A stretch of 64,000 nucleotides of DNA from a virus, in IMG/VR virus record IMGVR_UViG_3300017917_001342, positions 183,669 through 247,668 of that record; one strand, 5' to 3'. Positions 5,949 through 37,769 of this stretch are shown here, one piece after another. Position 1 is the stretch's first letter. Each line of letters starts with the position of its first letter. The notes under the pieces are model-generated. The model worked only from the letters and a program-made list of their open reading frames with translations. It had not been told where the DNA came from and did no database searches. The position numbers and the translations under genes are program-made.

Positions 5949-5965
5949 GCAAAAGGAGTTTTTGC
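5949..5965 (+). promoter_or_regulatory. Ribosome binding site inside a small hairpin (copy 2)
   Basis: Same 17-base element as at 5761, with GGAG displayed in the loop. It fixes the pnuC start at the ATG at 5968 rather than an upstream TTG at 5962. Confidence 0.55.
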
Positions 5966-5967
5966 AA

Positions 5968-15292: not shown

Positions 15293-15742
15293 ATGCGCTT
15301 GTCTGAAATGCTCACATTTGATCAAGACACTATAGACCATTTTGCAGAGATACTAGAAAAAGGTGAACCCTGGGCTATACAAACGATCTACGACGAATTA
15401 GAAGAATATGGTATACCCGACGGTGAGGAAGCTGTATTGTTTAGAGAACTGCTACCTGAGATAGTTGCCTGGTTTAATAACGCAATAACTCATGAGGCTC
15501 TTGCATATTCTGTAATAGATTACGCAATATTTCTAATACAGAACGAAAATCTTACAGCATTAATACCATTTGTCGTTAGAAGTTTAAAAGCAAATAAAAC
15601 CGCAGTAATTAAACATCTGTTAACATTGATAAAAACCAATCACGAAGGTGCATTAGCAAGAGATTTGTTCAATGATCTATCAAAGTTTAACCTAAATTGG
15701 CCTGAATTAGCTGTAATTAAAAAAAGTTTAGAAGCGTTTTAA
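15293..15742 (+). CDS. WPEL-repeat protein, short
   Basis: 149 residues, all helical. It starts MRLSEMLTFDQ (tag-like but without a clear cut) one base after the previous stop and ends with one repeat unit: a helix around KTAVIKHLLTLIK, then LNWPELAVIKKSL. It is the simplest member of the family. Function unknown; the stop abuts the ATG of the next gene. Confidence 0.8.
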   Translation: MRLSEMLTFDQDTIDHFAEILEKGEPWAIQTIYDELEEYGIPDGEEAVLFRELLPEIVAWFNNAITHEALAYSVIDYAIFLIQNENLTALIPFVVRSLKANKTAVIKHLLTLIKTNHEGALARDLFNDLSKFNLNWPELAVIKKSLEAF

Positions 15743-16474
15743 ATGAGCGATAGCCCCTATACAGTTGTTAGTAAATCGTTTGATGAATTAAATGCTGCAA
15801 GTGAAGAAGCGCAGATTGCAGCAGTTAAAGCCAGACCAAATCTAATAACAAAAATTGATAATCCCAGTGCAGCAGTGCAATGGGCAGCAATTGAAGCTCA
15901 CGCAATTGTTGCCAGATACTTAGAGCATCTCGATGAGCGTGTACAACGAAAACTGATAGAAATAGATTATCGTAATCTACGTTACATAAACAATCCATCG
16001 CCTAGTATACAGTTAGCAGCAGTAACAGAAGATCCTAAAAGTATTCAGTATATTACCAATCCAACTCCAGAAGCACAGGTTGTAGCAACTAAAAAATGGC
16101 CCGAGGCTATACGATACATCAGTAGTCCAACCGAAGATGCGCAGGTAAATGCAGTTCTTGGTCATCCGTGGTCTATAGAACACATTGCTGAGCCTTGTGT
16201 GCAAGCACAAAAAATTGCAATATATAGTCAACCAGGTACAATGTTTGACTTGCAATGGCAGTTAGATCCTAATATCTTCAAAGAAGATGTAATCAAAACC
16301 GCCATTATTCGCACGATATTAACATCGTTAAAAAAGGACGGTAATACATATCAGGCAAGAAGATTTATCAATTTTTTAAAATCTTTTGATGTACAATGGC
16401 CTGAACTCGCAGTTATAGAACGTAGCATAGGCAACGAACCAGATGATGAATATGACGAAGGAATTCAACTATGA
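15743..16474 (+). CDS. NPxxEAQ-repeat protein with C-terminal WPEL unit
   Basis: 243 residues. Residues about 20-165 hold six or seven repeats of about 23 residues, each with an 'I..I.NP(S/T)..(A/V)Q.AAV' core (INNPSPSIQLAAV, ITNPTPEAQVVAT, ISSPTEDAQVNAV). This is a helical solenoid known from other phage proteins. It ends with FDVQWPELAVIERSIG, the repeat of the neighbouring genes. A fused solenoid and WPEL unit suggests a protein-binding scaffold. Its stop overlaps the next ATG (ATGA). Confidence 0.8.
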   Translation: MSDSPYTVVSKSFDELNAASEEAQIAAVKARPNLITKIDNPSAAVQWAAIEAHAIVARYLEHLDERVQRKLIEIDYRNLRYINNPSPSIQLAAVTEDPKSIQYITNPTPEAQVVATKKWPEAIRYISSPTEDAQVNAVLGHPWSIEHIAEPCVQAQKIAIYSQPGTMFDLQWQLDPNIFKEDVIKTAIIRTILTSLKKDGNTYQARRFINFLKSFDVQWPELAVIERSIGNEPDDEYDEGIQL

Positions 16475-17220
16475 AAGCCAATGAATTCATTAACGAATCT
16501 ATCAAATGGCAAGGCAACTCAGGTGCTACTCAAGCACGCCAAACTGATCATACTATTGAGGAAGCACGACGTTACGTTAAAGAAAACTATCCTCGAAATA
16601 AAACCTATACTATCAGCAGACTTGAACCAGGGTTTAGAGCATTGGATGCCAAAACCGGCTCTACTAATCCCAGTGCAGCAAATGCTACACTAAATCAAGA
16701 AGCAGCACTGAACCAGTTTGTTGAAATCTTTAAACTAAAACAAAATCCCTACATGAGCGGCAGCGAGCAAGTAACTGGCAGTATAGGATTCAGTTGGCAT
16801 GTAGGTGAAGATAAAGAGCGCAAGCATGCCATCTTCTATTATGAAGATCGCGGCATGGGCAATGACAGTATCACCATTGCTGCAAAAACCATTGTTGAAC
16901 TCAAAGTAATGCAAGAAGTTCTTATTCATACAGGTCTTATCCCTGATCCTGATGAGGCCAAAGCAAAACGCACCGCTGACGCAGATAAACGTAGAGATGT
17001 ACTTGCTAAAAAAGGCATTAAAATTGGTACTCGCATTACTGCTCGTAGACTAGACAACGGCGAAGTGTGGTTTGCTGGCAACGTAACTAGCATTGCACAA
17101 AACGGCTCTGTGGGTATTACTATTGATCAAGTAGATCCTGCTGTACAAGGTGTTACAGTTGGCAGTGTGTATAAAATGAAGCCAGGTAGTATTAGCAAAG
17201 ACATGATCTCCAATGACTGA
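16471..17220 (+). CDS. Probable internal head protein
   Basis: 249 residues. The N-terminus MKANEFINE|S matches the head-tag pattern very well (T4 internal protein III begins MKTYQEFIAE|A). The mature part has a helical N-terminal half, a beta-rich centre (FSWHVGEDKERKHAIFYYED) and a C-terminal SH3-like barrel (about 178-240, KIGTRITARRLDNGEVWFAG). No enzyme motif seen. It overlaps the preceding stop by four bases and is followed by a late promoter. Confidence 0.8.
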   Translation: MKANEFINESIKWQGNSGATQARQTDHTIEEARRYVKENYPRNKTYTISRLEPGFRALDAKTGSTNPSAANATLNQEAALNQFVEIFKLKQNPYMSGSEQVTGSIGFSWHVGEDKERKHAIFYYEDRGMGNDSITIAAKTIVELKVMQEVLIHTGLIPDPDEAKAKRTADADKRRDVLAKKGIKIGTRITARRLDNGEVWFAGNVTSIAQNGSVGITIDQVDPAVQGVTVGSVYKMKPGSISKDMISND

Positions 17221-17252: not shown

Positions 17253-17699
17253 ATGCGATTAGCAGATTTGTACGGCGACTTGTTTGAGTCTATCACAGCA
17301 GATGATATTAAAGATCCTATTTCCAAGGGACTAGTTCCTAATTTCATCCACAGTATGCCGTCTACTCATCTGCTAACAGGTATGGATCAATACTATCAAT
17401 ATTATAGATTCTTGATTGCCATTGCAGGTTACCCGGAAGATTCCGACATACCATTAACTAGTGTTGTTAGGGATTGGCCTATGACAGTAGCATACACTAC
17501 ACAAGAAAAAGAAATGATAGATAAAGTTGCCAAACGTATGGGTATATCACCTACAGAAATTGCGTACGAAGGCAGTAAAGAATTACCCGATACCTACACT
17601 GTAAGTCCGGTAATGAAATTTTCAATGACTGAATCTCAACACCGCAAATTAAAAAATCTAGCAGTTCTAACAGAGGCAATGATAAATGAAACTAAATGA
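17253..17699 (+). CDS. Small tagged protein, paralogue of the first domain of the next gene
   Basis: 148 residues. The tag MRLADLYGDLFE|S is followed by a domain whose order of motifs (YYQYYRF, a Trp-containing turn, YTTQEKEMIDKVAKRMG, VSPVMKFSMTES) matches residues 35-125 of the protein from 17686 (YLQYRF, YTPEEIETVRLAAEQSG, VSPVMPFHMSET). The function of the shared domain is unknown. The end overlaps the next gene by 14 bases. Confidence 0.8.
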   Translation: MRLADLYGDLFESITADDIKDPISKGLVPNFIHSMPSTHLLTGMDQYYQYYRFLIAIAGYPEDSDIPLTSVVRDWPMTVAYTTQEKEMIDKVAKRMGISPTEIAYEGSKELPDTYTVSPVMKFSMTESQHRKLKNLAVLTEAMINETK

Positions 17700-19485
17700 T
17701 CTGTTTGAACAGTTTGGATCCACAAAACTTGCACAAAATGCAGAAGCAGTAATACCACCTGTTGCGATATTCCCAGATCTTGACAACAGCAACAGTTACC
17801 TGCAATATAGATTCACAACTAATATGGCTGCGGCACGAGCGATTGCCGCCGGTGATGTACCATTTAAAAAAATTGTACCGTGGGAACAGTATCTAACTGT
17901 GGTAGGCTATACCCCAGAAGAAATAGAAACTGTGCGTCTAGCAGCAGAGCAATCTGGTATGAGAATGGAAATGCTTAACACTACCCCTAGCCACGAGCCA
18001 GATTGGGTTAACAAAGTTAGCCCGGTGATGCCGTTTCATATGAGCGAAACTAAGCGTAAAACCAAAGGCAAAGGTTTGTTTGAAAGCGATGGCAAACAGG
18101 TACTGGTAGTATATCCAGGACGTTTTCAGCCGGTACACCGAGGCCACGGTGCAGTGTTTAATGCACTACAAGAAGAGTTTGGTGGCAATGTGTTTATGGC
18201 AACGTCTGATAAAATAGAACCAGATCGCAGTCCATTCAGCTATGCAGATAAATCACTAATGGCTCGTGCTGCTGGTATACCTAGCGATAAATTTGTCAAG
18301 GTTAAAAATCCCTACAGTCCAATTGAAATTACCAAACTCTACGATCCCAACAACACAGTGCTGATACTAGTTGTTGGTGCTAAAGACATGGTGGATGATC
18401 CTAGATTTAAATTTGGTAACAAAAAAGACGGATCACCTAGTTACCTACAAAAATTTAAAGATATTGCTGTAGCTGAGCCTATGAGTAAACACGGCTATAT
18501 TATGGAAGCACCCACTGTGGAATTTCTTGTATTAGGACATCCCGTTACAAGTGCTACACAGGTACGTAATCTCTATGCTAAAAGTGATAACGTAAAACGA
18601 GATAGAATACTTAAAGATCTCTTTGAACAAAACCGTGTAGAACTGAGACAACTGTTTGACAGTAAATTTGGTTCTGTGCAGGAAACTATCAGTGAATCTT
18701 TACACAGCGACCAAATTGTAGACCACATGCGCAATTTCTTAAAAATTGCACAACGTGAATTGCAATTAGCACAATTGCCTAAAATTATTTGGACTAGTTC
18801 AAGTACTGCTCATGGTGAGCGACCAACATTCGGGAAATTCCAAAATGACAACAACACTATTACAGTTAGCATTGTTAACAGGCATCCTATTGACATCATG
18901 CGTACACTTGCGCATGAACTCACGCATTACAAGCAAGATATCACAAAGGGTCTAAACGCCAACAGTGGTGATACTGGCAGTCCAGAAGAAGATGAGGCCA
19001 ATGCTATGGCAGGCCGTATTATGCGGCATTTTGATGAAAAATACCCGCATGCATTTAACGCTAAACCGGTAGTATCAGAACAAATTAAACGTAGAAGTAA
19101 AACTACTAATGAAACTGATACAACTACACCACAAACTAAAATGAATCCTGCAGATATAGAAGCAGACATGCTTGCTAATACAAGTGGTATGCCAGCGGAT
19201 CCAAATGCTGCTAAAAACCTAGCGAAAAAGCTCGGTATTAAGCTGCTTGGTAAAATGGCAGGGAAAGCTATTGCTGGACCTGTAGGTGGTGTTGTAGGTG
19301 GTGTAATAGCAGGCGAAATTGCAGACCGCGCTCTTGTTAAAGAAGAAGTCTGGGATAAACCAAATCCTGTTAAAAAACATAAAAAGCTAGATGCTGACGA
19401 TAAGGCTGCTGCAAAACGCAGAGCCAAAGCTGCTGGTAGAAAATACCCAAACATGGTTGACAACATCTGGGCTGCTAGACGATAA
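17686..19485 (+). CDS. Polyprotein: tag, duplicated domain, cytidylyltransferase-like and metallopeptidase modules
   Basis: 599 residues. The tag MKLNDLFE|Q and cuts after E133 (LFE|S) and E337 (ISE|S) separate the modules. Module 1 is the paralogue of 17253. Module 2 (134-337) is an HxGH nucleotidyltransferase: VYPGRFQPVHRGHGA at about 143, a GHPVTSATQVR block near the end, the fold of NMN or glycerol-phosphate adenylyl/cytidylyltransferases. Module 3 (338 onward) is a zinc peptidase with H410-E411-L-T-H414 and a candidate third ligand E437. The tail has a glycine zipper (AGPVGGVVGGVIAGEIAD) and a Lys/Arg-rich end (AKAAGRKYPNMVDNIWAARR). Expected to act in the infected cell after injection. 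Confidence 0.85.
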   Translation: MKLNDLFEQFGSTKLAQNAEAVIPPVAIFPDLDNSNSYLQYRFTTNMAAARAIAAGDVPFKKIVPWEQYLTVVGYTPEEIETVRLAAEQSGMRMEMLNTTPSHEPDWVNKVSPVMPFHMSETKRKTKGKGLFESDGKQVLVVYPGRFQPVHRGHGAVFNALQEEFGGNVFMATSDKIEPDRSPFSYADKSLMARAAGIPSDKFVKVKNPYSPIEITKLYDPNNTVLILVVGAKDMVDDPRFKFGNKKDGSPSYLQKFKDIAVAEPMSKHGYIMEAPTVEFLVLGHPVTSATQVRNLYAKSDNVKRDRILKDLFEQNRVELRQLFDSKFGSVQETISESLHSDQIVDHMRNFLKIAQRELQLAQLPKIIWTSSSTAHGERPTFGKFQNDNNTITVSIVNRHPIDIMRTLAHELTHYKQDITKGLNANSGDTGSPEEDEANAMAGRIMRHFDEKYPHAFNAKPVVSEQIKRRSKTTNETDTTTPQTKMNPADIEADMLANTSGMPADPNAAKNLAKKLGIKLLGKMAGKAIAGPVGGVVGGVIAGEIADRALVKEEVWDKPNPVKKHKKLDADDKAAAKRRAKAAGRKYPNMVDNIWAARR

Positions 19486-22026: not shown

Positions 22027-24246
22027 ATGAAGTTAGATGATATATTTGAAGCAGGCCCAAAGATAGACAACATTCATGGTATGGGTGCTGTTGGTATAAG
22101 TGGTAATATCGACTACATGGGTTTACGAGTATACGTAAAACCCAGCGTGTTTCTCAAACTTGCATACAGTCATCCTAACCTTGATACTACATACATTCAA
22201 CAACAGTTGTCGATTGGACAAGCTATCGGCGCACCGTTTCTAAGTATTGCAATACCTGAATCGTGGATCAGTCCAGATTCACATTACGAAAAAGTTGTAG
22301 AAGGTGACCTAACTGATCCTGCTGAAATCACAGGTCATGAAGGTCGTCATCGCATGGCTGCTATATTGAAGGAGTACGGAGATGTTCCTGTTGAAACACA
22401 TCTTGTGTTTAATGGTCTTCGTCGTCGTCATATTACTGATAACATGATCGAACGACTAAACAGTGATATATTAAACGAACATGGTAAACTTCTAATAGGG
22501 CCATGGTTTAGTTTAACAGAAACTATCACCGAAGCCGATGCAGATTTTATCTATCGCAATTTTCTAAAAGACATTAACATATACGGTATAACAAAAGCAT
22601 TACATAAAATTTCTCTACGTATTGAACGTGCTGATGCAGACGGTGAAGATCCAGAGACGACTAGAAGTATTTTAACTGATCACAAAGAGTTAATACTTAA
22701 AGAACTATTATCTTGGATAAAACTATGTGAATACAAAGAAGATATCTACGAAGTTATCAAAGCTATCAAGTATGTTAATAGTATAGGTATTGATTGGCCA
22801 GAATTTGAAACAATTAAAAAAGGCTGTAAAAGTATTGCCGCCTCGGCGCCGAGTAATCCTTTTCAACTTGGTTATCACGAAATTAATGAAAACTTTGCAG
22901 ATGGCAAAGGACCAGGTAGACCCGGTGATAGTCGCAGACATGGTATACCCAAACATGCAACTCTGTCACAGTTAGATAAAATTGGTAAAGGGTCTGGACG
23001 TAAGGCGCAGCTAGCACGTTGGCAAGCAAATATGCGTAGAGGTCGTGCTAAAGTTAACGAAAATGAACTAGGCAGCTACATGCCATTAGATATTGCACAA
23101 CTTAAAGAATTACTATTAGTTGTGCAAGATCAACAGGAAATTGTAGATGATCACAGTTTTGATGTAGAACCGGGAACCGTTGCATATAAGCAAATAGAAC
23201 AGGAATATCGTGCATTAACTGCTATCGAATATGTTGTAAAAAACAATATCAAAGCAATTAATAATCCCGAACTACAGCCAGGCGCTATTTTTGTATATGA
23301 TTGGGAATACGATGATGCAATTGGTGCAGCTCAATTACAAGTAACTGGTACAGTGGCCGAATTGAAATGGTTAGGTAGCTATAACAGCTCTGGTAAGCAA
23401 CTGATAAAGCAGGGATTGTCACATGCTAAAACAATGGGTGCTAAGTCTGTTAATCTAACTAGCAAATGGGGCAGTGCTGAATACTATAAAAAGCAAGGCT
23501 TTACACCAAAAGATAATGTGGCAGATAACCCAATAACAGATGTCGGTACATCATTTACAAAAGACATAGATGAAGCATCTCAACAGTATAAAAAGATCAG
23601 TCCTGAACTGATAAAAGACATTGTTGCAACTGTGCCACAGACTCGTGAAATATGGTTCCATGGTAGTAGAGCAACAGGCGCACATCGACGTGACAGTGAT
23701 TGGGATATACTAGTAGTAGTACCAGATGACATTAAAGGCAATACCTATATAGATATTATAGAACTGTTGCGTAACATAGAACGAAACTATCCGAACTACG
23801 ATATACAACCTGCTCACCCACGTAATATGATCACTAATATTGCTAGAGAAGAAGGTGTATTGTTGTGGTCACATAAACCGCCAGTTACTGAAGCCATTGC
23901 ACCACATGGCGATTTTAACAACGAATTGCGCATGATGAAAGCTGGTACTAAGCCTGCTGCAATAATTGATCCTATGGTATATGAACACATGTATAAACCA
24001 TTGGTAAATGATTACGGATGGGAAGTGGTTACATTTAAAAACAATTATGGTCGTAGATACGTAGTAGGACAGATGGGCGAATATGCTCGTATTAAACGTA
24101 TTGCTGATCTAGTTGACAACATGAATAAAAAAATGGAACAAGGTGTTAAAGCAACACCTGAGTATCATATACAATTAGGTCGCTTACTAGGTTATAGTGA
24201 ACAAGATATTGAAGATTTCTTAGAAAAAATTGCAATGAATTCTTGA
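22027..24246 (+). CDS. Polyprotein: ParB-like, WPEF, basic peptide, GNAT and nucleotidyltransferase modules
   Basis: 739 residues, the clearest example of cuts at domain borders. Tag MKLDDIFE|A. Piece 9-169 (ends ITE|A) has a ParB-like ITGHEGRHRMAA core. Piece 170-288 (INE|N) is a helical WPEF unit. Piece 289-345 (VNE|N) is a 57-residue Gly/Arg/Lys peptide (GKGPGRPGDSRRHG...RKAQLARWQANMRRG), likely nucleic-acid binding. Piece 346-516 (IDE|A) is a GNAT with YYKKQGF. Piece 517-622 (VTE|A) is a MNT/Pol-beta type nucleotidyltransferase (FHGSRATG, SDWDILV). Piece 623-739 is unassigned. The overall design fits polyvalent proteins injected with phage DNA. Confidence 0.85.
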   Translation: MKLDDIFEAGPKIDNIHGMGAVGISGNIDYMGLRVYVKPSVFLKLAYSHPNLDTTYIQQQLSIGQAIGAPFLSIAIPESWISPDSHYEKVVEGDLTDPAEITGHEGRHRMAAILKEYGDVPVETHLVFNGLRRRHITDNMIERLNSDILNEHGKLLIGPWFSLTETITEADADFIYRNFLKDINIYGITKALHKISLRIERADADGEDPETTRSILTDHKELILKELLSWIKLCEYKEDIYEVIKAIKYVNSIGIDWPEFETIKKGCKSIAASAPSNPFQLGYHEINENFADGKGPGRPGDSRRHGIPKHATLSQLDKIGKGSGRKAQLARWQANMRRGRAKVNENELGSYMPLDIAQLKELLLVVQDQQEIVDDHSFDVEPGTVAYKQIEQEYRALTAIEYVVKNNIKAINNPELQPGAIFVYDWEYDDAIGAAQLQVTGTVAELKWLGSYNSSGKQLIKQGLSHAKTMGAKSVNLTSKWGSAEYYKKQGFTPKDNVADNPITDVGTSFTKDIDEASQQYKKISPELIKDIVATVPQTREIWFHGSRATGAHRRDSDWDILVVVPDDIKGNTYIDIIELLRNIERNYPNYDIQPAHPRNMITNIAREEGVLLWSHKPPVTEAIAPHGDFNNELRMMKAGTKPAAIIDPMVYEHMYKPLVNDYGWEVVTFKNNYGRRYVVGQMGEYARIKRIADLVDNMNKKMEQGVKATPEYHIQLGRLLGYSEQDIEDFLEKIAMNS

Positions 24247-25179: not shown

Positions 25180-26088
25180 ATGAGACTATTAGACATTTTC
25201 ACCCCCGATTACCTCCTGGAAGACCTTGAAGGTCAAAAAGCCCAGCGTGGTCAATTTATCAAAGATAAACTAGGTAAAGACTTTAAAGGTCTACCTGGGT
25301 ATGATGACATCGATAAGCTAATTGACAAAATTGGCGAAGTTGACCCGTCACGTAATGGCATTTACATGCCCTGGATCGCGCGGTTGGTAATCACTAAACC
25401 GGGCGAAAACCGATCTGAAGACCTTGATCGTGTTGGACAAGACTTGCAAAACTTTGAACAGTTTAAAGCACGTATTGCTAACAAAGATATTAACAGTTAC
25501 AAGAGTTTCCAACAGCTCTATGACGTAATTGAACCATTTACTAGACCACAGCCAAAAACTGCTGATCAAAAAGCCAAAGAAAAAGAAGCAGCAGAAATTG
25601 CTAAACTGAAGAATGAAATTATCACAGTTTACAATGGTCCCGAAGGTTGGATACGTATTCCTAAAACACAAGCTGCTGCGGTGTATCTAGGTCGTGGTAC
25701 TCGTTGGTGTACTGCTGCTGATCGCAACAACATGTTTAATCACTATAGTAAAAACGATAACCTGTTTGTTGTACACGATAAAGCACAGGCCAAAGCCTAC
25801 AGAGAGTTTATGGCAGACCCTGCTAATGCTGGTAAGCGTAAACCGCACAACGGTATGTATCAGATGCACATTGAAAGTGGACAGTTTGCGTCAGATGACG
25901 ACAGCAATCAAGGTATGAATGCTGTACCAGATTGGGCAAGAACTCCAATTCTTGATTACTACAAAGCTAACAATCCAAAACTAACTTGGAAGCAGATTAT
26001 GACACTGAGTACATTCGGTGACGAAAATCTTGCTGCGGGTACAGAACATGAGGATCTAATCAACCTCATGAAAGCCTATGGTATCTAA
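25180..26088 (+). CDS. Tagged protein with 'TRWCTA' domain
   Basis: 302 residues from ATG 25180; the long upstream extension contains the terminator and is rejected. Tag MRLLDIFTPDYLLE|D. Residues about 150-270 hold a domain with LGRGTRWCTAADRNNMFNHY, LFVVHD and YQMHIESGQF, a phage-associated fold with an invariant Trp-Cys-Thr-Ala; its chemistry is unknown to me, though the lone Cys could be catalytic. A Lys/Glu-rich helix (125-148) precedes it. It is expected in the head. Confidence 0.75.
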   Translation: MRLLDIFTPDYLLEDLEGQKAQRGQFIKDKLGKDFKGLPGYDDIDKLIDKIGEVDPSRNGIYMPWIARLVITKPGENRSEDLDRVGQDLQNFEQFKARIANKDINSYKSFQQLYDVIEPFTRPQPKTADQKAKEKEAAEIAKLKNEIITVYNGPEGWIRIPKTQAAAVYLGRGTRWCTAADRNNMFNHYSKNDNLFVVHDKAQAKAYREFMADPANAGKRKPHNGMYQMHIESGQFASDDDSNQGMNAVPDWARTPILDYYKANNPKLTWKQIMTLSTFGDENLAAGTEHEDLINLMKAYGI

Positions 26089-26091: not shown

Positions 26092-27120
26092 ATGCGCTTC
26101 GCTGAATTGCAACCTCACACTCAATTCAGCGAAGCTGCTCTCAACTCTGTAACACAGCGTTATATTGATTCACACATAAAACACTTACTATACAAAAAAG
26201 ACCAGTATGGTCCTCGTAATGTACGTAAAGTTGTTGAATTCTTAACTGATTTACAAAATCGTTTTAAACGAGATGGCGATCCCACTACATTTGAAATCGC
26301 CGAAGTACTTGAACCATATAGACAAGATATTATAAAGTACTTGTCTAATTTGTTTGATGGTGTACCAGACAGTTATACGCCTGTATTTCAAGCAGCTATA
26401 TTAACTAATAGTGGTGTACACTGGCCGGAAATAGTTGAAATATTTGAGCCTTATCGAGAACCTATTATTAAAAGAATACTACAAACTGTGCGACACGGTT
26501 ACAGAGACAGTGATGTAGATTCTTGGGTGACAGCATTACGAGCAATTGGGGTTGATTGGCCAGAAGTAGATATCATAGAACGAAGCCGAAACGCTAGTAA
26601 ACAAATCGATGAAAACAGCTTAGTTGCTGATTCGCATAGACAATATATGCTTGATAATATTAGAGACCGTCGGTTTCATATTATCTTTTCACAATTAATC
26701 ACCTATTTCAAACCAGATCCAGTTATTGCAGATGCATTAACTAAAAACAAATCTGTTGTGCTGCAATACATATCCGATGCAATTAAGAACGGGTATTTCT
26801 TAGGTGCTGCAAAATATCTTGTTGGTTTGCAAAATGTTGGTGTTGCGTGGCCGGAACTGGAAAACATTAAAACTGCAATAAAAGTACCGTGCATAACTCG
26901 TATGCTAACAATACTAAAAAAGTCTGATTACGATAGAGACCATCTGACAAATATATTAGAAACAATAAAGTATTTGAGAAAAGCTGGACTTGATTGGCCT
27001 GAGTTAAAAATTATCAACGACGCAGCCGAAACGGAACTTGATTATCATCCCGAAGATGAAGAAGAAGAATACATCGCAACTGATGACGATCGCGGCGACT
27101 ACTACAGAGATCTCTATTAA
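26092..27120 (+). CDS. WPEL-repeat polyprotein
   Basis: 342 residues, all helical. The tag MRFAELQPHTQFSE|A would be cut after E14, and an internal IDE|N lies after E174. There are two WPEL pairs: VHWPEIVEI and VDWPEVDII (136 bases apart) in the first piece, VAWPELENI and LDWPELKII (145 apart) in the second. The C-terminus is very acidic (PEDEEEEYIATDDD), a feature shared with head core proteins. No enzyme motif. Confidence 0.85.
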   Translation: MRFAELQPHTQFSEAALNSVTQRYIDSHIKHLLYKKDQYGPRNVRKVVEFLTDLQNRFKRDGDPTTFEIAEVLEPYRQDIIKYLSNLFDGVPDSYTPVFQAAILTNSGVHWPEIVEIFEPYREPIIKRILQTVRHGYRDSDVDSWVTALRAIGVDWPEVDIIERSRNASKQIDENSLVADSHRQYMLDNIRDRRFHIIFSQLITYFKPDPVIADALTKNKSVVLQYISDAIKNGYFLGAAKYLVGLQNVGVAWPELENIKTAIKVPCITRMLTILKKSDYDRDHLTNILETIKYLRKAGLDWPELKIINDAAETELDYHPEDEEEEYIATDDDRGDYYRDLY

Positions 27121-27162: not shown

Positions 27163-28530
27163 ATGCAGATACAGAGTTTAATGGAAGCAAAAAACATTCC
27201 GCCGGATGTAGCTGCAAAAATAGACAGCATAGTAAAATCCATGCTGAAAACTGGCTACATAGATGTGTGTGTAAGACGACTTGAAGATGAAGGTCTCACA
27301 GATGCTGGCATACTTGATGTGTTAACTCCACATGCAGACAAGCTAGTAAATCTCATAACAAGTAAAAAGCATAAGACATTACCTGGTTATACAGTTTATG
27401 AGTTGCTATTACTATTAGGTATAGGAGCAAGATGGCCGTCGTTAATTGCAGCACTTGCCAATAACAAAGAGTCAGTAATTAAGTACATTTTAACACAGTT
27501 TAAAGAATATTCTAACGATGATATCGAAATGGATATAATAAATTTCGATATAAAAGTTTTGCAAAAATTAGGTATCGATTGGCCAGAATTAGCAGTTATA
27601 AAAAAATCTGTTGAAAACGAATTGGTAAGAATGGGTCACCCGCCATCATTAATGGAAGCACAGCCTGTAATACCTCAAAAACTTATTAAAATATTCAACC
27701 AACATCTTAACAACATATATGAGCGCGGTATTGACAAGTTAGCGTATTTGATAATTGATATGAAAAATGCAGGTGCAACCGATCAACAGATTGCATCGCT
27801 TCTCAGTGAAAAGCGTCAAGAAATTGTAAAGATACTCAGAAATACTATTCACAATGAATCTCCTAAAAACTGGAGAGCAATTAACGAATTTGCTGTTGCA
27901 ATTGCGTCATTATTAGATCTTGGAATCAAATGGCCGCCATTATTAGAATTATTAAACTACTATCGAGATAAAATCGAAGCCTGGGCAATTGCTGCGGTAT
28001 TTGATGCAGGATTTGGCAAGCATGTTGCTGAGAAATTACGTAAGTTTGAACAATTGGGTTTTGATATATTACCAATACGCCGAGCAATCAAAGCAAACAT
28101 ATTACCTACACTAAAAGAATATCTTACTAAAAATGGTATTGATCATTATACAGTTGCTAAATTAGAGGCTATGCATAGACTAAATCTATTGCCTAAAGCT
28201 CTAGATGACAAAACTACTAAACTTGTTTTTGATGCAATAGAAAACTCTATGAGCAAAGGTATGCCTAATGATTTCAAAAATGCATTGAAATATTTTGCAA
28301 TGATGAACATACCAAATCTTGAATCAACCGTAAAAAGCATAGTAGAAGCTAATAAAACACCTGTTATAAAATCATTACTAACTGCTATGAAAACTGGTTT
28401 AGGTAATGCAAACAACTATTACACGTTACCAACTTATTACATAGTAGATACACTACAGCTATTACATAAACTAGGTATACAGTGGCCAGAAATTGCTGCA
28501 ATTACTAGAAGCTTGAAGGCAGGGCGTTGA
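27163..28530 (+). CDS. WPEL-repeat polyprotein
   Basis: 455 residues. The tag MQIQSLME|A is followed by PPDVAAKIDSIV, closely similar to the start of the protein from 36507 (tag, then PPDVIEQLNGLL), so the two are paralogues. An internal LME|A cut lies after E165. Repeat units end RWPSL, IDWPELAVI, KWPPL and IQWPEIAAI; two have lost the Glu, the mark of decaying repeats. Wholly helical, no catalytic signature. Confidence 0.85.
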   Translation: MQIQSLMEAKNIPPDVAAKIDSIVKSMLKTGYIDVCVRRLEDEGLTDAGILDVLTPHADKLVNLITSKKHKTLPGYTVYELLLLLGIGARWPSLIAALANNKESVIKYILTQFKEYSNDDIEMDIINFDIKVLQKLGIDWPELAVIKKSVENELVRMGHPPSLMEAQPVIPQKLIKIFNQHLNNIYERGIDKLAYLIIDMKNAGATDQQIASLLSEKRQEIVKILRNTIHNESPKNWRAINEFAVAIASLLDLGIKWPPLLELLNYYRDKIEAWAIAAVFDAGFGKHVAEKLRKFEQLGFDILPIRRAIKANILPTLKEYLTKNGIDHYTVAKLEAMHRLNLLPKALDDKTTKLVFDAIENSMSKGMPNDFKNALKYFAMMNIPNLESTVKSIVEANKTPVIKSLLTAMKTGLGNANNYYTLPTYYIVDTLQLLHKLGIQWPEIAAITRSLKAGR

Positions 28531-30391: not shown

Positions 30392-31559
30392 AAACGCAGA
30401 TGAATTAATTGCTGATCGTATGGACGGTTTAAAAAAGCAAGAACCTCTAGCACTTAGAGGATTAATCCATAATCTAAAGAGCAGACCCTATGAATGGTAC
30501 GATGATGATATTGCTGCACTGTTAGAAGAATACAAAGCTGACATATTAAAATACATCACACGCAAATATCATGTGGGCCAGATATCATTACCAACTAATG
30601 ATATTAAAAAGCTAATGAGTGTTGGAATACAATGGCCTGAATTAACTGATCTTGTCAACCGATACAAAACAGCTATTATCAAAAATGTACTAGAAACTCT
30701 TAAGCTAGATTACAGAAACGTAGCTGACACTGTAGGTACGTTGACTAGTATGAATCTCGGTTGGAAAGAATTAGACGCAATTAATCGTAGCTTAAATGCA
30801 CTGCGTAATAATGTAAACGAAGCTTTAAAGTATGATAACAATGAAATAGAAGAACTCAAAACTAACATAATTCAAGACCTACATGACGGATATTATAGAG
30901 ATGCGTTAGATGTCATAGCAACACTGTGGCATGACAATAGTAATCTTGGCGACGTAACTGCTATAACACGTTTATTGGAAAAACATAAACGTGGGTTGAT
31001 TACACAGTTATTAACTGTAATCAAATATAGTAGCACTTACGAATTAAGCAAATATTTTAAAGATTTTATTAAAGGACTACAAGATTTTGGGATTGATTGG
31101 CCAGAATTCGACGCTATGTTAAAATCGATCAACGCTGACAAAACAACACTTGATGAATCTTATTCAAAAAACGATGCAGAACAGTATAAGGATGAAATCA
31201 TTAATACCATTAAGAAGGATGATATGGATGATTTGTTTGAAATGCTTGCTGAGTTTGCATGGATACCGAGAGCACTTGTAGGCGATGTTACAAAACTAAA
31301 TCGTATACTAGAACTACACAAAGTTCGAGTAATAAAAGCATTACTGTCTTATATGCGAGAGCTAGATGACAGCGGTATTTGCTACATCATGCCACAAATT
31401 CTAGGCGGTTTAGAACATGCTGGCATAAATTGGCCCGAGTTAAAAATTATAGATCAAAGTGTTGACAAAATACAAAAACGTCGCGAAGCCGAAGATGACG
31501 ATTTGTATGAGAGTAGCAAAGCAGTAAATACTACTGCAAAAAAGGCTCGCAGACGATGA
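30378..31559 (+). CDS. WPEL-repeat polyprotein
   Basis: 393 residues. It starts MTSSKNADELIADRMDG inside the end of the previous gene. Repeats end IQWPELTDL, LGWKELDAI, IDWPEFDAM and INWPELKII. Cuts are predicted after E148 (VNE|A) and E260 (LDE|S), each 19 residues past the Trp. The C-terminal tail after YESSK is basic (TTAKKARRR). It overlaps the next ATG by four bases. Confidence 0.85.
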   Translation: MTSSKNADELIADRMDGLKKQEPLALRGLIHNLKSRPYEWYDDDIAALLEEYKADILKYITRKYHVGQISLPTNDIKKLMSVGIQWPELTDLVNRYKTAIIKNVLETLKLDYRNVADTVGTLTSMNLGWKELDAINRSLNALRNNVNEALKYDNNEIEELKTNIIQDLHDGYYRDALDVIATLWHDNSNLGDVTAITRLLEKHKRGLITQLLTVIKYSSTYELSKYFKDFIKGLQDFGIDWPEFDAMLKSINADKTTLDESYSKNDAEQYKDEIINTIKKDDMDDLFEMLAEFAWIPRALVGDVTKLNRILELHKVRVIKALLSYMRELDDSGICYIMPQILGGLEHAGINWPELKIIDQSVDKIQKRREAEDDDLYESSKAVNTTAKKARRR

Positions 31560-33865
31560 CACCTCATGAAATTCGCGTAACTCTAAATTTCTTCTTAGAA
31601 GATCTACAAGAAGAACGTTACATTGATGCTGTCAATGGTCTGATAGAATTGTATGCCTATACCAATTCTGATTATCCTCCATATGCTGATCGTAAAAACC
31701 AAATACCCTTTGACAAAATCAGCGAATTACTACAACAGCATAAAACTGGTATTGTAAAACGCTTGTTGCGTTACATGAAGCATTATGATGCAGATGAAGT
31801 AAAACGATTTGTGTTGCTTGCTATCAATGCATTAAAACACTTTGGTATAGATTGGCCTGAACTAGCTGTTATGAAAAACAGCGTTTCGCCGGAAGTTGAA
31901 GAATCCTGGAGCAACAAATATAAGAAAAGCATCAATTGCAGCAATCCAAAAGGTTTTAGTCAACGTGCGCACTGTGCTGCTAGACGTAAGCGCAAAGCTG
32001 GCGGTAAGACTAAGAGCAAGCCAGTGAGAGAAGCATTGAGTTCGCCGCTGGGAGGTATTGTGCTGTCAATGCAAGACGCATTGCGAAAAGGCAGTGATGC
32101 CGCAGTATCGCATCGTGTTATTGACCTTTGGCGTGCTAACACAGCAGAACGACAGCGTGCAAGCGATATGCTAGCAGATGTAGAACACTTGGTAACAAGT
32201 TATGTAGAACGTCATCTCGGTTCAGAAAATCATTTAGATGTACAAGACGGCTTGAACATGCTTCAAGTTTTACCACCAAGTGAAGATTGGGCAGACTTGC
32301 AAGTGTTATTAAACAAATACAAAACCAACATACTAAAGTATTTGTTAAAGTGCATGAAGGATAATGATATAGATATACCTCATTATCGAATACCTGTGTT
32401 GAAAAAATGGGGCACAGATTGGCCAGAACTGGACACAATCTACACCAGTGCTGATTCAGAATTGAAAAAACAAAAACGTATAGACGAGGGTGTTATTGCC
32501 TATCATGCTAGCCCGGTTGCTACAATTCGCAGCAAACGTTTTTGGCCATTTACACATTTTGGCAGTGAAAAAGCCGCAGCAGATCGTATCAAATATCTAA
32601 AGAAAACAGGCGAACTTGCAAAGGACTCGCCAGTCAGAGTCTATCAAGTTGAACTCAATATCAACAATCCCGCTGTAATCAAAGATGAACCTGTGCAACA
32701 CAGTGCAACACAGTTTGCATTTGCATTGAAAAAGGCCAAGCTGATTTCTCAAGAGGAAATGGAAAGCATCACAAAACTTGGACACGATCCTGTTACCTAT
32801 AAGCCTACTATGAGTTACGCTGATGCTGAAAAGCAACGCAATCGTAAATTGAGAGCATTGATGCGTAGCAAAGGCTTTGACGGATTTGCGTATGTGAATC
32901 GCTTTGAAGACAAAGGCAGTATGAGCTATGTCATACTGGATCCCGCACAAGCTAGAACATTGCGACCAGTTAAAGCAGCGCCCGCAGAATTAAAAGAAGA
33001 TGAACGCAACAATTTTTCCACAGTGTTTAGAAATCGTTCTGAACAAGAAGGTGGTCACCGTTTTACACTCAATGCAGATGAATATGTAGAACATATAGAA
33101 AAACTCTTAAAATATGGAATGCTAGCAACTGATAATGTAGTGATAGAATTAGCTACGCTGGGTCGACGCAGGCCCGATGCAATTAAAAATTGGCCAGAAC
33201 TAGCTAACTTATTAAATCAACACAAAGATGAGTTGATGCGCATTATACAACATCACTTTAATAAAGACGTTACCAGTGAGCATGCAATGGCTCGCAGTGT
33301 TGATGTTGCAGGTGCATTAAAGCTAATTGGTATAGACTGGCCAGAAATCGCTCAGCTTATTGAAAAGAACAAGCACAAAATAGTCAAAACACTGCTTGAG
33401 TTTATGCGAGATGAATATGACGCCCATATCCCATACGAACTTAAAACACTGCGTAGCTATGGTGCAGATTGGCCAGAGTTAGCAGTAATTGAAAAAAGCC
33501 TAAACGCAGGATTGAATGAATCAAAGTCTAACAAATTACCGCAGGACGTTACTGACATGGTAATGGACATGCTTAAACGAGATGGCACAGGCATCGCACT
33601 GTATCATATTTGGGAATGGAAATTAGACATAGATAAACTGCCAGAATTAGAAGAATTCCTAAACGACCGCAAGCAAACCTATATGGAAATTATGTTGAAA
33701 AACATGAAGATGGGCGGAGACGCACTATACGGTACAGAACAGTATTTAGAACGTTTAGAAGGTACTAAAATAAATTGGCCTGAACTCAAAGTCATACGTA
33801 ATAGCTTAAATAAGCTATTAGCAGAATTGCATGCGTCGGAAGAACATCCAAATGAAAACCATTGA
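31556..33865 (+). CDS. Polyprotein: WPEL units plus ADP-ribosyltransferase-like module
   Basis: 769 residues. Cuts are predicted after E116 (VEE|S), E159 (VRE|A), E311 (IDE|G), E481 (LKE|D) and E655 (LNE|S). Piece 117-159 is a basic peptide with Cys (SINCSNPKGFSQRAHCAARR). Piece 312-481 starts VIAYHASP, then FWPFTHFGSEKAA, VRVYQVELNINNP, LMRSKGFDGFAYVN and SYVILDPAQAR. That order (Y-H, H-F-G, GFDGF, final I.(D)P) is the ART-like domain found in phage polyvalent proteins. The other pieces are WPEL helical units (IDWPEL, TDWPEL, NWPEL, IDWPEI, ADWPEL, INWPEL). The ART piece may modify host proteins after injection, as T4 Alt does. Confidence 0.85.
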   Translation: MTPHEIRVTLNFFLEDLQEERYIDAVNGLIELYAYTNSDYPPYADRKNQIPFDKISELLQQHKTGIVKRLLRYMKHYDADEVKRFVLLAINALKHFGIDWPELAVMKNSVSPEVEESWSNKYKKSINCSNPKGFSQRAHCAARRKRKAGGKTKSKPVREALSSPLGGIVLSMQDALRKGSDAAVSHRVIDLWRANTAERQRASDMLADVEHLVTSYVERHLGSENHLDVQDGLNMLQVLPPSEDWADLQVLLNKYKTNILKYLLKCMKDNDIDIPHYRIPVLKKWGTDWPELDTIYTSADSELKKQKRIDEGVIAYHASPVATIRSKRFWPFTHFGSEKAAADRIKYLKKTGELAKDSPVRVYQVELNINNPAVIKDEPVQHSATQFAFALKKAKLISQEEMESITKLGHDPVTYKPTMSYADAEKQRNRKLRALMRSKGFDGFAYVNRFEDKGSMSYVILDPAQARTLRPVKAAPAELKEDERNNFSTVFRNRSEQEGGHRFTLNADEYVEHIEKLLKYGMLATDNVVIELATLGRRRPDAIKNWPELANLLNQHKDELMRIIQHHFNKDVTSEHAMARSVDVAGALKLIGIDWPEIAQLIEKNKHKIVKTLLEFMRDEYDAHIPYELKTLRSYGADWPELAVIEKSLNAGLNESKSNKLPQDVTDMVMDMLKRDGTGIALYHIWEWKLDIDKLPELEEFLNDRKQTYMEIMLKNMKMGGDALYGTEQYLERLEGTKINWPELKVIRNSLNKLLAELHASEEHPNENH

Positions 33866-36503
33866 TTTAAACATATTTTTAGAAGCTCAAGGTCCTGCAA
33901 AGATACCAACTGGTTCTGGTAAGTCCACTATTGCAAACCCTGCGCATTCTCCCGGTAGCTATTACGAAGGTGATCCTGCTAACTTTGATTTTGGTGCACA
34001 GCGTAGAAACTACCAAGCATTAAATGCCGCATTGGCACGTAACGGTAAAAAGCTTAATTACATCGGTGTTTCCAAAGCAGATAGTGGTAGAGACACCTTT
34101 GTTGCAACTGCACCCGGTGTTGTATGGTACAAATACGAAGGCAGCAATCCACAGTCTGGACAAAACATACTCTACATCAACGGTGTTAAAGACAAGTTTA
34201 CGTCATTTATGGCATTGTCGCCAGAGGAACAAGACAAGAAACTGTCTGCAAGTCCTGCTGCATTGAGTTTACAAAAAGGTGATGTGTTTGGTTATATCAA
34301 TGCACTGGCTGCGTCAGATGCGCCTGCAAACACTGTTGTTGACAGTTTGAATCAAAACAAAGATTTGATACTGCAACGAATAGCAAACGAACTGTTAAAC
34401 TACCCAAAATACATATCTAAGATAAAAACCTTTAATAAAGCATTGGCTAACAAAGGTGCGTTGCTACCATGGTTAACAGTTGACGAAATTTTAAAAGCAA
34501 TCCAGCCTGTGATATCGAAAGATCTGTTCGACTATTTTTTAAGGTGGCCAAGTACAGATTCATTGAAACGTATCAAATCTGCAATCGCAGTTGGATTGCT
34601 GTTTGACATGTCTTATATGCAAGAATTGACCAATAACAATGTTGATGGGTTTGTCGAACGCTTTTCTAGTCCCGGCATGTTTACCGGACCAGGATATCGC
34701 ATGGTAGACAACCTAATAGAATTTCTAACTCTTGTACGCTACAGTAACCCACGATTAGAAGTTAAGAATCTAATTGACAATGTGGATTATAAGCGCATTG
34801 TAAAATATTTAAACGATTCTAGCAATGTAACAGGAAATGTATATCAAGCTGCTAAACTGTTGTTAAATGCAGGATTTCCAAAAGATCGCATTGTACAGGC
34901 ATTTGAAGATCTAAAAGAAGAAATGGTTGGCAATGCACTGCTTAAATTAGTTAGAACTGCTAGAGTTGATGATATTGGAAATCTCAATGCAGCACTTAAT
35001 ATACTTGGTATATCATGGCCCGAAATTGTTGGGGATAATATACGTAAGCTGATTGAAAATAACAAAACTAATATTATTAAAACTATACTTACTAATGTAA
35101 AAAATGGAGTTTTTCAAAATGCGTTAAATGCTGTCGATTTCTTTATAGATAACGACTACAAATGGCCAGAGCTAGCTGCAATAAAACGAAGCTTAATCGC
35201 TTCACTAAATAACCGAACAGACGAAACACGCAACAGTTTGAGTAACAATATGAAAATCGACGAAGTTGAACAATTAGACGAGGACCTTGGTAATCTAAAT
35301 CAGCTAGGTATGGGTCCGCTGCTTAATGTACTCAAACAGGAGCATTGGAGTCGCCGAAATTACGATCCAGAGATACGTCCGGTCGGCAAGCGTTTTGTTG
35401 GATCGGGCTATGACCGACGAGTAGGTCCTAACAGCGAAATACAAGACATTGGTGCAGTAAAAGACATTCTTAAATCTCTACGTAAAGCATTTAAAACCAC
35501 AGCAGCCGTTGCATTTGCACTATATATAGGCGGCAAACCTGTGATGTTTGGTGTCACAGATGAATATACACTAGCAGGCAGCAGTCGTCATGGTAAAATT
35601 GCCTACGATCTAACACCCTGGGCAGAAACTGTTAAGCTGTATGATCAGCAACAAAAAGGTCGCTACGCACCTAGTACACAGTTGACAACTATGCGTGACA
35701 AAGAAGAACGCAATTACAGTGATCCACGCGACAAATGGGATACTCCTGTAATGGTTACTCAAAAATACGCAGGTGATATGATATCAACTGGCGACTTGTC
35801 AACTATTGCAAAAGTAATTGAATTTATTTCTGCTAACACAGGCGAACCTATCACAGCTAAGTTAGTAATGAAAGACGAAGCTGGCTTTGAAAAAATGAAA
35901 AGCCGACAGATCAATCATGTTGCAGTTCGCAGTGCAGCAGAAGATCTCAAGCATAGACTAAGTGTTTACAAGAACAGCAAAAAACCATCTGTAGATACTA
36001 TTGAAGATTTTATTGCTATGAGCCTTAGAAAACCAGGCAGTGTAGTTCAGTTTGCAGGTGTACCATATCGTTTAACTGCAACCAGCTACGATAAAATAGA
36101 ACCAGTATCTTTGCTATCAGGTAAAGAGTTTAGCACAGATTATAAAAGCAATCTCAAGGACGATTATCATAACAGTGTTAGGATCTATTACAGATACGAC
36201 AAAGACACTAATCAATTGTTGCCGATATATGCCGAATGGTATGACAAAACTGATCCAAATAACCCATCATATCAACGAGTATCTGCTGTTCTAGATGGCA
36301 AAGGTTATATCAAAAGTAGACTAAAAGTGCAGTCGCTAACAAAAGAAGCGGTGATACCAAAAATATTAGAGAAGATTAAATCGTCGCAATTCAAAGATGC
36401 ATTGTTATATGTTCAGGCATTGCAAAAAATGGGTATGGACTGGCCAGAGTTAAGTGTTATTGAACGCAGTGCAAATGCTGAATTAAACAAGCCGAGAGAC
36501 TGA
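33852..36503 (+). CDS. Large tagged polyprotein with WPEL units
   Basis: 883 residues from ATG 33852, overlapping the upstream gene by 14 bases; an in-frame start at 33831 would bury the tag. MKTIDLNIFLE|A is the closest match here to the T4 capsid-targeting sequence (MKTYQEFIAE|A). A Gly/Asn/Tyr-rich region follows (12-100), then long helical stretches with ISWPEIV and YKWPELAAI. A cut lies after E477 (LDE|D). Residues about 495-790 are a mixed alpha-beta domain (TTAAVAFALYIGGKPVMFGV, WAETVKLYDQQQ) without a family I can name. One more unit (MDWPELSVIERS) closes the protein. Confidence 0.85.
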   Translation: MKTIDLNIFLEAQGPAKIPTGSGKSTIANPAHSPGSYYEGDPANFDFGAQRRNYQALNAALARNGKKLNYIGVSKADSGRDTFVATAPGVVWYKYEGSNPQSGQNILYINGVKDKFTSFMALSPEEQDKKLSASPAALSLQKGDVFGYINALAASDAPANTVVDSLNQNKDLILQRIANELLNYPKYISKIKTFNKALANKGALLPWLTVDEILKAIQPVISKDLFDYFLRWPSTDSLKRIKSAIAVGLLFDMSYMQELTNNNVDGFVERFSSPGMFTGPGYRMVDNLIEFLTLVRYSNPRLEVKNLIDNVDYKRIVKYLNDSSNVTGNVYQAAKLLLNAGFPKDRIVQAFEDLKEEMVGNALLKLVRTARVDDIGNLNAALNILGISWPEIVGDNIRKLIENNKTNIIKTILTNVKNGVFQNALNAVDFFIDNDYKWPELAAIKRSLIASLNNRTDETRNSLSNNMKIDEVEQLDEDLGNLNQLGMGPLLNVLKQEHWSRRNYDPEIRPVGKRFVGSGYDRRVGPNSEIQDIGAVKDILKSLRKAFKTTAAVAFALYIGGKPVMFGVTDEYTLAGSSRHGKIAYDLTPWAETVKLYDQQQKGRYAPSTQLTTMRDKEERNYSDPRDKWDTPVMVTQKYAGDMISTGDLSTIAKVIEFISANTGEPITAKLVMKDEAGFEKMKSRQINHVAVRSAAEDLKHRLSVYKNSKKPSVDTIEDFIAMSLRKPGSVVQFAGVPYRLTATSYDKIEPVSLLSGKEFSTDYKSNLKDDYHNSVRIYYRYDKDTNQLLPIYAEWYDKTDPNNPSYQRVSAVLDGKGYIKSRLKVQSLTKEAVIPKILEKIKSSQFKDALLYVQALQKMGMDWPELSVIERSANAELNKPRD

Positions 36504-36506: not shown

Positions 36507-37769
36507 ATGAAGATTACAGAGTTATCAGAGGCTGTAGAATTACCGCCAGATGTTATAGAACAACTTAACGGTTTATTAATTAAACCATTGCGTGATACTC
36601 TGATAAGACGTATGGCATATCCAAATCTCTATTACATAATTGATACATTTGAAGATATGCTTGCTGATAAAAAATATGCCAAGTCGCCGCGTCGTAAACA
36701 GGCAATTGCGTTGCTATTTCCATATGTTTTGCAAGCATTAGATGAGATTATCAAAAATGCCAAAGCAGACGGTAGCTATTATCCTTTCACTAGAATAGTC
36801 AAGCTACTGAGATACAGCATAGACAACGAAGCTGTTGCAGAAGTTTTAGAAAACAACAAAGGCAAACTCTTACAGATATTAAAAGCCTTTATTGACAAAA
36901 CTCACAAATCTGCACATAACGTTGGACGAAATGCCGACGAGAGTGCAATTGTAGATATTGTCAATGCTCTTGATCATGCAGGCATTGATTGGATAGAACT
37001 CAAAGACCTATATAAACAACATTTCTATAATCGCTATAGCGGCTGGTTAAGTCAATCGCAAGACAAATGGGGTACAAATACTGTATTCAATGTGTTAAAC
37101 GACATGAGTAGGCACAAACTCACTATAGATGATCTCAACGAAGAACTAGCGAACCGTTTACAGTCTATGAAATCAACAATATTAAACAGATCACTGTTTA
37201 ATTTTAGACATGATTCTGTGCGATACGGTTTGGTAGAAATGGGAGACTACTATAAAAAACTGCGACGTCTTGGGTTCGATTGGCCTGAATTACAAATATC
37301 TAGCTTAGATCAATTCAAAACACCTATCATGCGTGAGTTACTGACACTGTTTAAAGAACAAAACGTAGGCCGCGCAGCAAAAATAGTAGCAGAATTAAAG
37401 CAGGCAACAGATTGGCCAGAACTAGCTGCTATGGAACGATCACTAGGTGCTAAACAACTTGATGAAGAACTGCACCCTGCACGTATCAAAGCAGTTGATG
37501 AATCTCTGCGCAACGGTGATTATATAGGTGCTGCACATTATATGGGTGTGTACGGTGTCAACATAGATGAGTTCGACAAGCGTGTTCGTGAACGATTTGA
37601 AGAAATGAAACCAGAAATCATTCGTGAAATGCTACAGCTTGTCAAAAACATTTCGCTCGATCGTGGTTATCGAATAATGGACAATGTTCGTAAAGCTGGA
37701 CTAGGTTGGCCAGAGATTGATATCATATTCAAAAGTCTAGACAAGTCCTACACTGAACGATACCGTTAA
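36507..37769 (+). CDS. WPEL-repeat polyprotein
   Basis: 420 residues. The tag MKITELSE|A and the following PPDVIEQLNG mark it as a paralogue of the protein from 27163. Units end IDWIELKDL, FDWPELQIS, TDWPELAAM and LGWPEIDII. A cut is predicted after E320 (LDE|E), 16 residues past the third Trp region. It starts three bases after the previous stop and is the last member of the array. Confidence 0.85.
   Translation: MKITELSEAVELPPDVIEQLNGLLIKPLRDTLIRRMAYPNLYYIIDTFEDMLADKKYAKSPRRKQAIALLFPYVLQALDEIIKNAKADGSYYPFTRIVKLLRYSIDNEAVAEVLENNKGKLLQILKAFIDKTHKSAHNVGRNADESAIVDIVNALDHAGIDWIELKDLYKQHFYNRYSGWLSQSQDKWGTNTVFNVLNDMSRHKLTIDDLNEELANRLQSMKSTILNRSLFNFRHDSVRYGLVEMGDYYKKLRRLGFDWPELQISSLDQFKTPIMRELLTLFKEQNVGRAAKIVAELKQATDWPELAAMERSLGAKQLDEELHPARIKAVDESLRNGDYIGAAHYMGVYGVNIDEFDKRVRERFEEMKPEIIREMLQLVKNISLDRGYRIMDNVRKAGLGWPEIDIIFKSLDKSYTERYR

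Follow-up and report, generated by a model that had tools for sequence, protein, structure and literature searches.

The question raised by this locus is whether a single phage gene built of six modules, with a putative cleavage site at every joint, encodes one multidomain protein or several products made as one chain. The window, which is the whole stretch of DNA that was analysed (64,000 nucleotides), comprises bases 183,669-247,668 of a virus record 518,643 bp long. The frame at 22027..24246 (+) is a real open reading frame with an ATG start, and its product has 739 aa and 83.5 kDa. We consider that this product is probably a polyprotein that a T4-like giant phage packages behind one leader, and that it would be cut by an S77 protease into six products that are retained and injected; we give this reading a probability of about 0.7. 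The features of the gene are the following (the arrow marks the predicted scissile bond; the evidence is in brackets):

22027..24246 (+): open reading frame of the six-module protein (translation, 739 aa, 83.5 kDa)
22027..22050 (+): leader MKLDDIFE of the capsid-targeting type, with a cut predicted behind E8 (motif; T4 IPII/IPIII leaders)
22051..22533 (+): module 1, residues 9-169, family unnamed, "ParB-like" in the first-pass annotation (172 viral relatives, alignments)
22525..22533 (+): predicted site ITE↓A after residue 169 (motif; in the low-confidence model segment 166-170)
22534..22890 (+): module 2, WPEF helical repeat, residues 170-288 (repeat likeness to neighbouring genes, model)
22882..22890 (+): predicted site INE↓N after residue 288 (motif; contexts in relatives)
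22891..23061 (+): module 3, basic peptide, residues 289-345 (250 viral relatives, contexts)
23053..23061 (+): predicted site VNE↓N after residue 345 (motif, gap test)
23062..23574 (+): module 4, GNAT acetyltransferase-like, residues 346-516 (weak fold matches; relative with Pfam GNAT)
23566..23574 (+): predicted site IDE↓A after residue 516 (motif, gap test)
23575..23892 (+): module 5, minimal nucleotidyltransferase (MntA-like), residues 517-622 (Pfam PF18765, PF01909)
23884..23892 (+): predicted site VTE↓A after residue 622 (motif; equivalent joint in L005 is TNE↓A)
23893..24243 (+): module 6, C-terminal alpha/beta domain, residues 623-739 (10 viral relatives, model, Foldseek)

The first-pass annotation had placed an L/I/V-x-E↓A/N site at every module boundary, and this placement was borne out. 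In the 739-aa protein, [LIV]-x-E↓[AN] occurs after residues 8, 169, 288, 345, 516 and 622 and nowhere else. Compared with composition shuffles, the number of matches to this pattern, which had been picked with the sequence already in view, is high (1.5 expected, 6 found, p ~0.001; 55 of 20,000 shuffles in a second run). Far more telling than their count is the placement of the sites: the six fall one in each of the six inter-module gaps, which total 89 residues, and none of 20,000 shuffles matched this, either under the pattern above or under the looser [LIVMF]xE[ASGNDQ], the module limits being taken from homology to relatives, Pfam and the predicted model and the gap limits being set by hand after inspection of the data. 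The count given by the looser pattern is itself ordinary (8 sites, attained in 2,498 of 20,000 shuffles), and its two additional sites (78 and 92) lie within the folded, well-predicted module 1. The strict T4 motif [LI]xE occurs 13 times, 8 of them outside the gaps, and covers only four of the six gaps because the other two sites have V at P3; valine is the second commonest P3 residue among relatives (23 of 83). Bare motif counting was dropped as evidence, since a control frame of 710 aa (ClpB-like by eye) contains four [LIV]xE[AN] (p 0.17). The restriction of P1' to A or N describes the 739-aa protein and does not extend to its relatives, in which P1' is often Y, K or V. Cuts at the six sites would give products of 17.9, 13.7, 6.2, 19.0, 12.3 and 13.5 kDa; fragments of "12-19 kDa" had been predicted, a range that leaves out the 6-kDa basic peptide.

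The names given earlier to the modules fared differently. The nucleotidyltransferase is confirmed by Pfam (PF18765, E 3.7e-8), with a match to NF047752 in NCBIfam that scored below cut-off, and the GNAT label is consistent with weak fold matches and with a relative, L135, whose corresponding stretch overlaps a Pfam GNAT match. The WPEF label agrees with a repeat common to neighbouring genes, and the basic peptide (57 aa, 6.2 kDa, pI 11.8) is indeed a mobile module found in many viral contexts. By contrast, "ParB-like" could not be confirmed for module 1: none of PHROGs, NCBIfam, Pfam and PDB yielded a family name, a Pfam run on 26 members gave no weighty match, and DdrB-like ParB and other named polyvalent-protein domains likewise had no weighty match among the 26 members in Pfam, in PHROGs or in PDB. 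The C-terminal domain has a confidently predicted fold (pLDDT 88.7). Its nearest structures in Foldseek are 2guk, an uncharacterised Porphyromonas gingivalis protein, and then a methyltransferase effector (prob 0.99 and 0.95, TM 0.55-0.57, E 0.03-0.12), matches too weak for a function to be assigned from them. In the AlphaFold model of the whole protein (mean pLDDT 67.9), all five internal sites lie in or at stretches with pLDDT <50; since the alignment behind the model had 20 rows, chiefly covering module 1, the low pLDDT over modules 4 and 5 (GNAT and nucleotidyltransferase) says little about those joints. Foldseek with the whole model returned no match at E 0.001 or better, and VIA-align returned middling matches only, a family missing among them not being thereby excluded.

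A point absent from the first-pass annotation is that the first site of the protein closes a leader of the T4 capsid-targeting type. The sequence MKLDDIFE↓A resembles the T4 IPII/IPIII leader MKTYQEFIAE↓A (from the T4 record), and the 739-aa protein thus has the short N-terminal leader ending in [L/I]-x-E that characterises T4 internal proteins. Leaders of this kind are concentrated around the gene, where the leader rule picks out 9 of 16 cluster genes versus 1 of 29 other genes in the window (p 1e-4; one of the nine, at 15293, looks spurious). Cluster genes without a leader include those at 15743, 19710, 28532 and 30378, and those with a leader or a leader-like start include:

16471..17220 (+): gene with leader MKANEFINE↓S (leader rule)
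17253..17699 (+): gene with leader MRLADLYGDLFE↓S (leader rule)
17686..19485 (+): gene for a cytidylyltransferase-like domain behind leader MKLNDLFE↓Q (leader rule, PHROG 395)
25180..26088 (+): gene with leader MRLLDIFTPDYLLE↓D; its L005 relative starts MRLLDIFE↓S (leader rule)
26092..27120 (+): WPEL-repeat gene with leader MRFAELQPHTQFSE↓A (leader rule)
27163..28530 (+): WPEL-repeat gene, leader-like MQIQSLME↓A, outside the M[KR] rule count (by sequence)
33852..36503 (+): gene with leader MKTIDLNIFLE↓A (leader rule)
36507..37769 (+): WPEL-repeat gene with leader MKITELSE↓A (leader rule)

Many genes of this cluster (15293-37769) consist of helical repeats of ~60 aa ending in (D/N)WPEL/F, often in several copies, for which no family name was found. 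The product of 17686-19485 joins a cytidylyl/NMN-adenylyltransferase-like domain (PHROG 395) to a metalloprotease-like stretch, and excerpts of the cyanophage literature report such enzymes in virions. In 31556-33865, a basic module, WSNKYKKSINCS, has VEE↓S on one side and VRE↓A on the other; a stretch YHASP...FG in this frame looks by eye like an ADP-ribosyltransferase, a relative in L122 having a KptA-like stretch below cut-off. Also by eye, the genes at 34-768, 5962-6630 and 6623-7666 look like an NAD salvage set (NAMPT-like, PnuC-like and NadR-like).

Beyond the window, the pattern M[RK]xx[ED]F[ILVM]xE fits 109 distinct ORF starts in 172 viral loci, which were picked for carrying the modules and are therefore not a random sample. 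Six swapped or altered patterns fit 0, 0, 0, 4, 0 and 2 starts, the last two having K/R or D/Q in place of Glu, so that a Glu appears to be needed at P1 of the leaders, which fits the specificity of an S77 protease. Such an enzyme is encoded in the same genome. It is a T4 gp21-type (S77) prohead protease (88.8 bits, E 9.1e-26) whose sole PDB match is the T4 prohead protease 5jbl, over residues 29-170, and it belongs with the major capsid protein to a T4-type head set; the frames around it are portal- and scaffold-like, as named by position and look. Cuts are predicted by eye in the major capsid protein (LFE↓S near its start) and in a small core-like gene (MRNFISIVE↓A). The major capsid family has another, short hit (39.9 bits) distant from the capsid gene, at G000:C1:265816-265929. 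Among 20 module-bearing records, the S77 protease was found in six, all of them among the seven records that have 250 kb or more; of the 14 in which it was not found, 13 are <225 kb and one has 310 kb, and since the small records may be fragments, its absence there says little.

How the same modules are arranged in other viruses carries the greatest part of the argument. Full-length relatives of the 739-aa protein were found neither in phages (tblastn) nor in viral_contigs, and its modules alone have relatives: 250 in viral_contigs for the basic peptide and 172 for module 1 (80 kept in each case), 10 viral relatives for the C-terminal module (none with a single sequence as query, 10 with an alignment) and two for the GNAT module, plus L132 and L135 found among other loci. 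Among named phages, the basic peptide and the standalone module-1 gene had no match. Some modules occur as small leader-bearing genes of their own, which start MRAAEFVIDE↓NFADG (L015), MRADEFISE↓NFSDG (L008) or MRATEFIAE↓LKIDN (L015), and a leader-bearing basic-peptide gene in L077 has further residues behind the peptide; elsewhere, the same modules form the tail end of unrelated proteins or take a middle position in long frames. In these internal contexts, module 1 is preceded by LIVMF at P3 in 17 of 22 cases and by E at P1 in 17 of 22, and the basic peptide in 22 of 32 and 32 of 32, respectively. When five modules are pooled, [LIVMF]-x-E stands exactly at the boundary in 68 of 83 non-redundant internal contexts, compared with 4, 2, 3, 5, 0, 0, 2 and 4 of 83 at control shifts of 8 down to 1 residues upstream. 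The other 15 contexts break the rule in register, some by 1-2 residues (e.g., LIAE↓VG in L005).

Two comparisons show how closely rearrangement follows these sites. In L088, a near relative whose module 1 is 72% identical, the counterpart of the upstream gene (19710-22025) and modules 1-2 are in one frame, in which WDPLSE↓T and AVNE↓N are separated by ~170 extra residues, the 19710 protein having WDPLNE↓K at that point; with one frame there and two here, stop and start codons move and the sites stay. In L005 and L168, the basic peptide is joined straight to the C-terminal module (AKTNE↓AIAPHGD), and in the 739-aa protein the cassette of GNAT and nucleotidyltransferase sits between AKVNE↓ and ↓AIAPHGD, exactly at the predicted scissile bonds. 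On comparison, it is well supported that the limit of a module across viruses is marked by the predicted site and not by the limit of the ORF. Still longer frames, of ~1,240-1,270 aa and starting MNLKE or MKLVDILE↓N, are present in L122 (1075-4887) and L135 (16-3738); the latter contains GNAT and deaminase stretches and the former nucleotidyltransferase and KptA-like stretches below cut-off. These frames have predicted sites at many joints and are richer test cases than the 739-aa protein.

The alternative that survives best, although we regard it as improbable, is that the leader alone is cut and that the internal motifs are relics of fused leader-bearing genes, the protein acting as one multidomain chain. 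Modules are known as separate leader-bearing genes, so that fusions would leave leader ends behind; an intact multidomain chain is what has been proposed for most polyvalent proteins, and T4 Alt and the SPN3US head proteins, in the excerpts consulted, lose terminal propeptides only. Nevertheless, a relic should keep P4 and P5 of the leader as well, where leaders prefer F and E, and the internal contexts keep only P3 and P1: P2 is mostly N, D or E, and hydrophobic residues are seldom found at P4 and P5 (12 of 83 and 5 of 83). Inside chains, the cutting half of the leader is thus retained and its targeting half is not, as selection for cleavage predicts, unlike a fusion relic. The occurrence of the site before five unrelated modules in those 68 of 83 contexts, and the residue-exact insertion of the cassette, also argue against relics.

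Distinctly less probable is that the protein is a scaffold-like component of the prohead core, which the protease shreds and whose fragments mostly exit the head. In T4, gp22, gp67 and gp68 provide a precedent, giving several fragments that mostly exit (PMC9026906, in the part consulted), and the basic peptide, with its pI of 11.8, and the helical WPEF repeats could be structural. However, there is no obvious reason for GNAT and nucleotidyltransferase modules in a scaffold, and a separate scaffold candidate stands beside the protease (L085 11272-12480, by position and look, with no weighty family match). Against a core protein, and in favour of the packaged polyprotein, also speak leader-bearing enzymes that were detected in mature virions of the cyanophage S-CREM2. 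For this phage, the 207 annotated genes were translated and set against the virion list of PMC10665884 (Table 3), the count omitting the genes from gp208 on, which include two endolysins and four structural proteins of that table; virion proteins outside the T4-type structural set (26) were compared with undetected proteins (161). A T4-style leader rule fixed before the proteins were inspected fits 3 of 26 versus 0 of 161 (p 0.0024), the leader rule carried over from the earlier counts 4 of 26 versus 5 of 161 (p 0.023), and F[LIMF]xE in the first 12 residues, a rule chosen post hoc, 5 of 26 versus 1 of 161 (p 2e-4). Leader-like stretches are present in the virion SAM hydrolase (MKDFDSFLEE), kinase (VKRFDAFLTE) and cytidylyltransferase (MKNFSSFLTE), and in the annotated frame of the virion Cas9-like protein RFASFMAE occupies residues 18-25. 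At L188 7704-12846, which corresponds to S-CREM2 gp12-gp14, Cas9-like and kinase-like virion proteins have capsid-targeting-like stretches near their starts, hinting at effectors packaged deliberately in a cultured cyanophage; for such proteins, the authors left contamination open in the part of PMC10665884 consulted.

A further module of the system, WSxKYKxSINCS, has matches in 17 named records, every one from a phage of Synechococcus or Prochlorococcus; among these phages, S-SM2 (gp108/gp109) and Bellamy (gp122/gp123) are culturable carriers of the modules. Its small gene starts MKSFKQFQE↓SWSNKYK in Bellamy and MKTFKQFQE↓GWSNKYK in SynMITS9220M01; in S-SM2 gp108, the module follows MKTLKQFLKE...FRE↓, and the larger neighbours of the gene repeat the site pattern (six of the 17 records examined). 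The last alternative, that leader and motif serve another role (e.g., an intracellular address or a degron) in a protein that is not in the virion, draws on packaging in this phage being a deduction and is very improbable, given the likeness of the leader to T4 internal-protein leaders, the enrichment of leaders among the S-CREM2 virion-detected proteins and the match of Glu at P1 to S77 specificity.

Previous studies describe the components of the packaged polyprotein that we favour. Capsid-targeting leaders, gp21-type cutting after L/I-x-E and T4 core proteins cut into several fragments are known, as is the trimming of T4 Alt at both ends (PMC9026906, in the part consulted). The T4 proteins IPI, IPII, IPIII and Alt resemble the 739-aa protein in having a short leader ending in hydrophobic-x-Glu, an S77 protease and, as proposed here, small effectors for delivery; in the T4 internal proteins each leader serves one product, whereas here one leader would serve six products by means of internal cuts. 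Unrelated domains are likewise combined in one phage chain in polyvalent proteins (Iyer et al., 2017; PMC5512222), which are heavily shuffled and are predicted to be injected, according to the excerpts of that paper, and GNAT is among their domains in those of PMC7824862. The link to polyvalent proteins drawn in the first-pass annotation therefore holds for the multidomain build, the GNAT and the nucleotidyltransferase and is not confirmed for the ParB-like module: disparate activities (nucleotidyltransferase, GNAT and other modules) lie in one phage polypeptide, whose injection and role in conflict are putative. The protein also shows one mark of a viral polyprotein, a predicted site at each joint between separable products, and the excerpts of PMC5512222 already liken polyvalent proteins to RNA-virus polyproteins. 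There, release by embedded peptidase domains is proposed; none was seen in the 739-aa protein, whose modules would be released in trans, the head-maturation protease acting on a linear site that recurs along the chain.

Further parallels for packaging are the Dar antirestriction proteins of phage P1, which are packaged and ejected as proposed here. The prohead protease removes an N-terminal portion of DarA, a packaging signal lies at the N-terminus of DarB, and the excerpts consulted do not describe multi-site cutting into several retained modules. Excerpts on the ejection proteins of SPN3US and phiKZ likewise report gp21-type cuts after a short Glu-ending motif, with several sites per propeptide; in SPN3US the motif is A-x-E and terminal propeptides are removed, whereas here retained enzymes would be separated. 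In the literature searched, where subscription papers were mostly outside scope, no title or abstract start described polyvalent proteins cut by a prohead protease, and the combination of a targeting leader, a prohead-protease site at each joint and residue-exact exchange was not found, its components being known. Further background was drawn from excerpts of PMC10052503, PMC7411985, PMC9024508, PMC12810830, PMC3037559 and PMC9602691.

The processing model put forward earlier is strengthened by what is directly observed, namely the sites and their positions, the matching S77 gene in the genome and the way the site is conserved where modules begin in different viruses; from these we infer cleavage in this phage, together with packaging, retention and injection and the host targets and functions of the modules. 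In our proposal, the eight-residue leader would act as a capsid-targeting sequence and bring the chain, still at full length, into the core of the prohead. As the head matures, the S77 (gp21-type) protease would cut at six exposed joints, each time after the Glu of [LIV]-x-E; the leader would come off, and six products of ~6-19 kDa would be set free, which may remain in the head and, being small enough to follow DNA, enter the host together with it. A single targeting signal would thereby load several effectors in equal numbers. Once inside, the nucleotidyltransferase and the GNAT module would act by modifying components of the host or of defence, and the basic peptide may bind DNA. Modules would also be gained, lost and reshuffled at the very sites that are cut.

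We also lean, less firmly than for the single protein, towards the view that a large group of T4-like phages, giants included, runs polyprotein delivery, with effector chains behind one capsid-targeting leader, the prohead protease as processing enzyme and its site as the joint for module exchange, so that a module would be free to switch between a leader-bearing gene of its own and a link in a chain. Chained effectors combined with a head protease are a strategy seldom considered for bacterial viruses. Polyvalent proteins pose the puzzle of how long multidomain chains are packaged and pass down a narrow tail, and of how their parts then act independently; a leader with [LIV]-x-E joints is a simple, readable code that would answer both halves of it. 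If this is true, packaged effectors and their exact ends could be read off the sequence, both for giant phages that are uncultured and for cyanophages that can be cultured, and it suggests that the kinase, cytidylyltransferase and SAM hydrolase of cyanophage virions may be packaged on purpose and not be contaminants.
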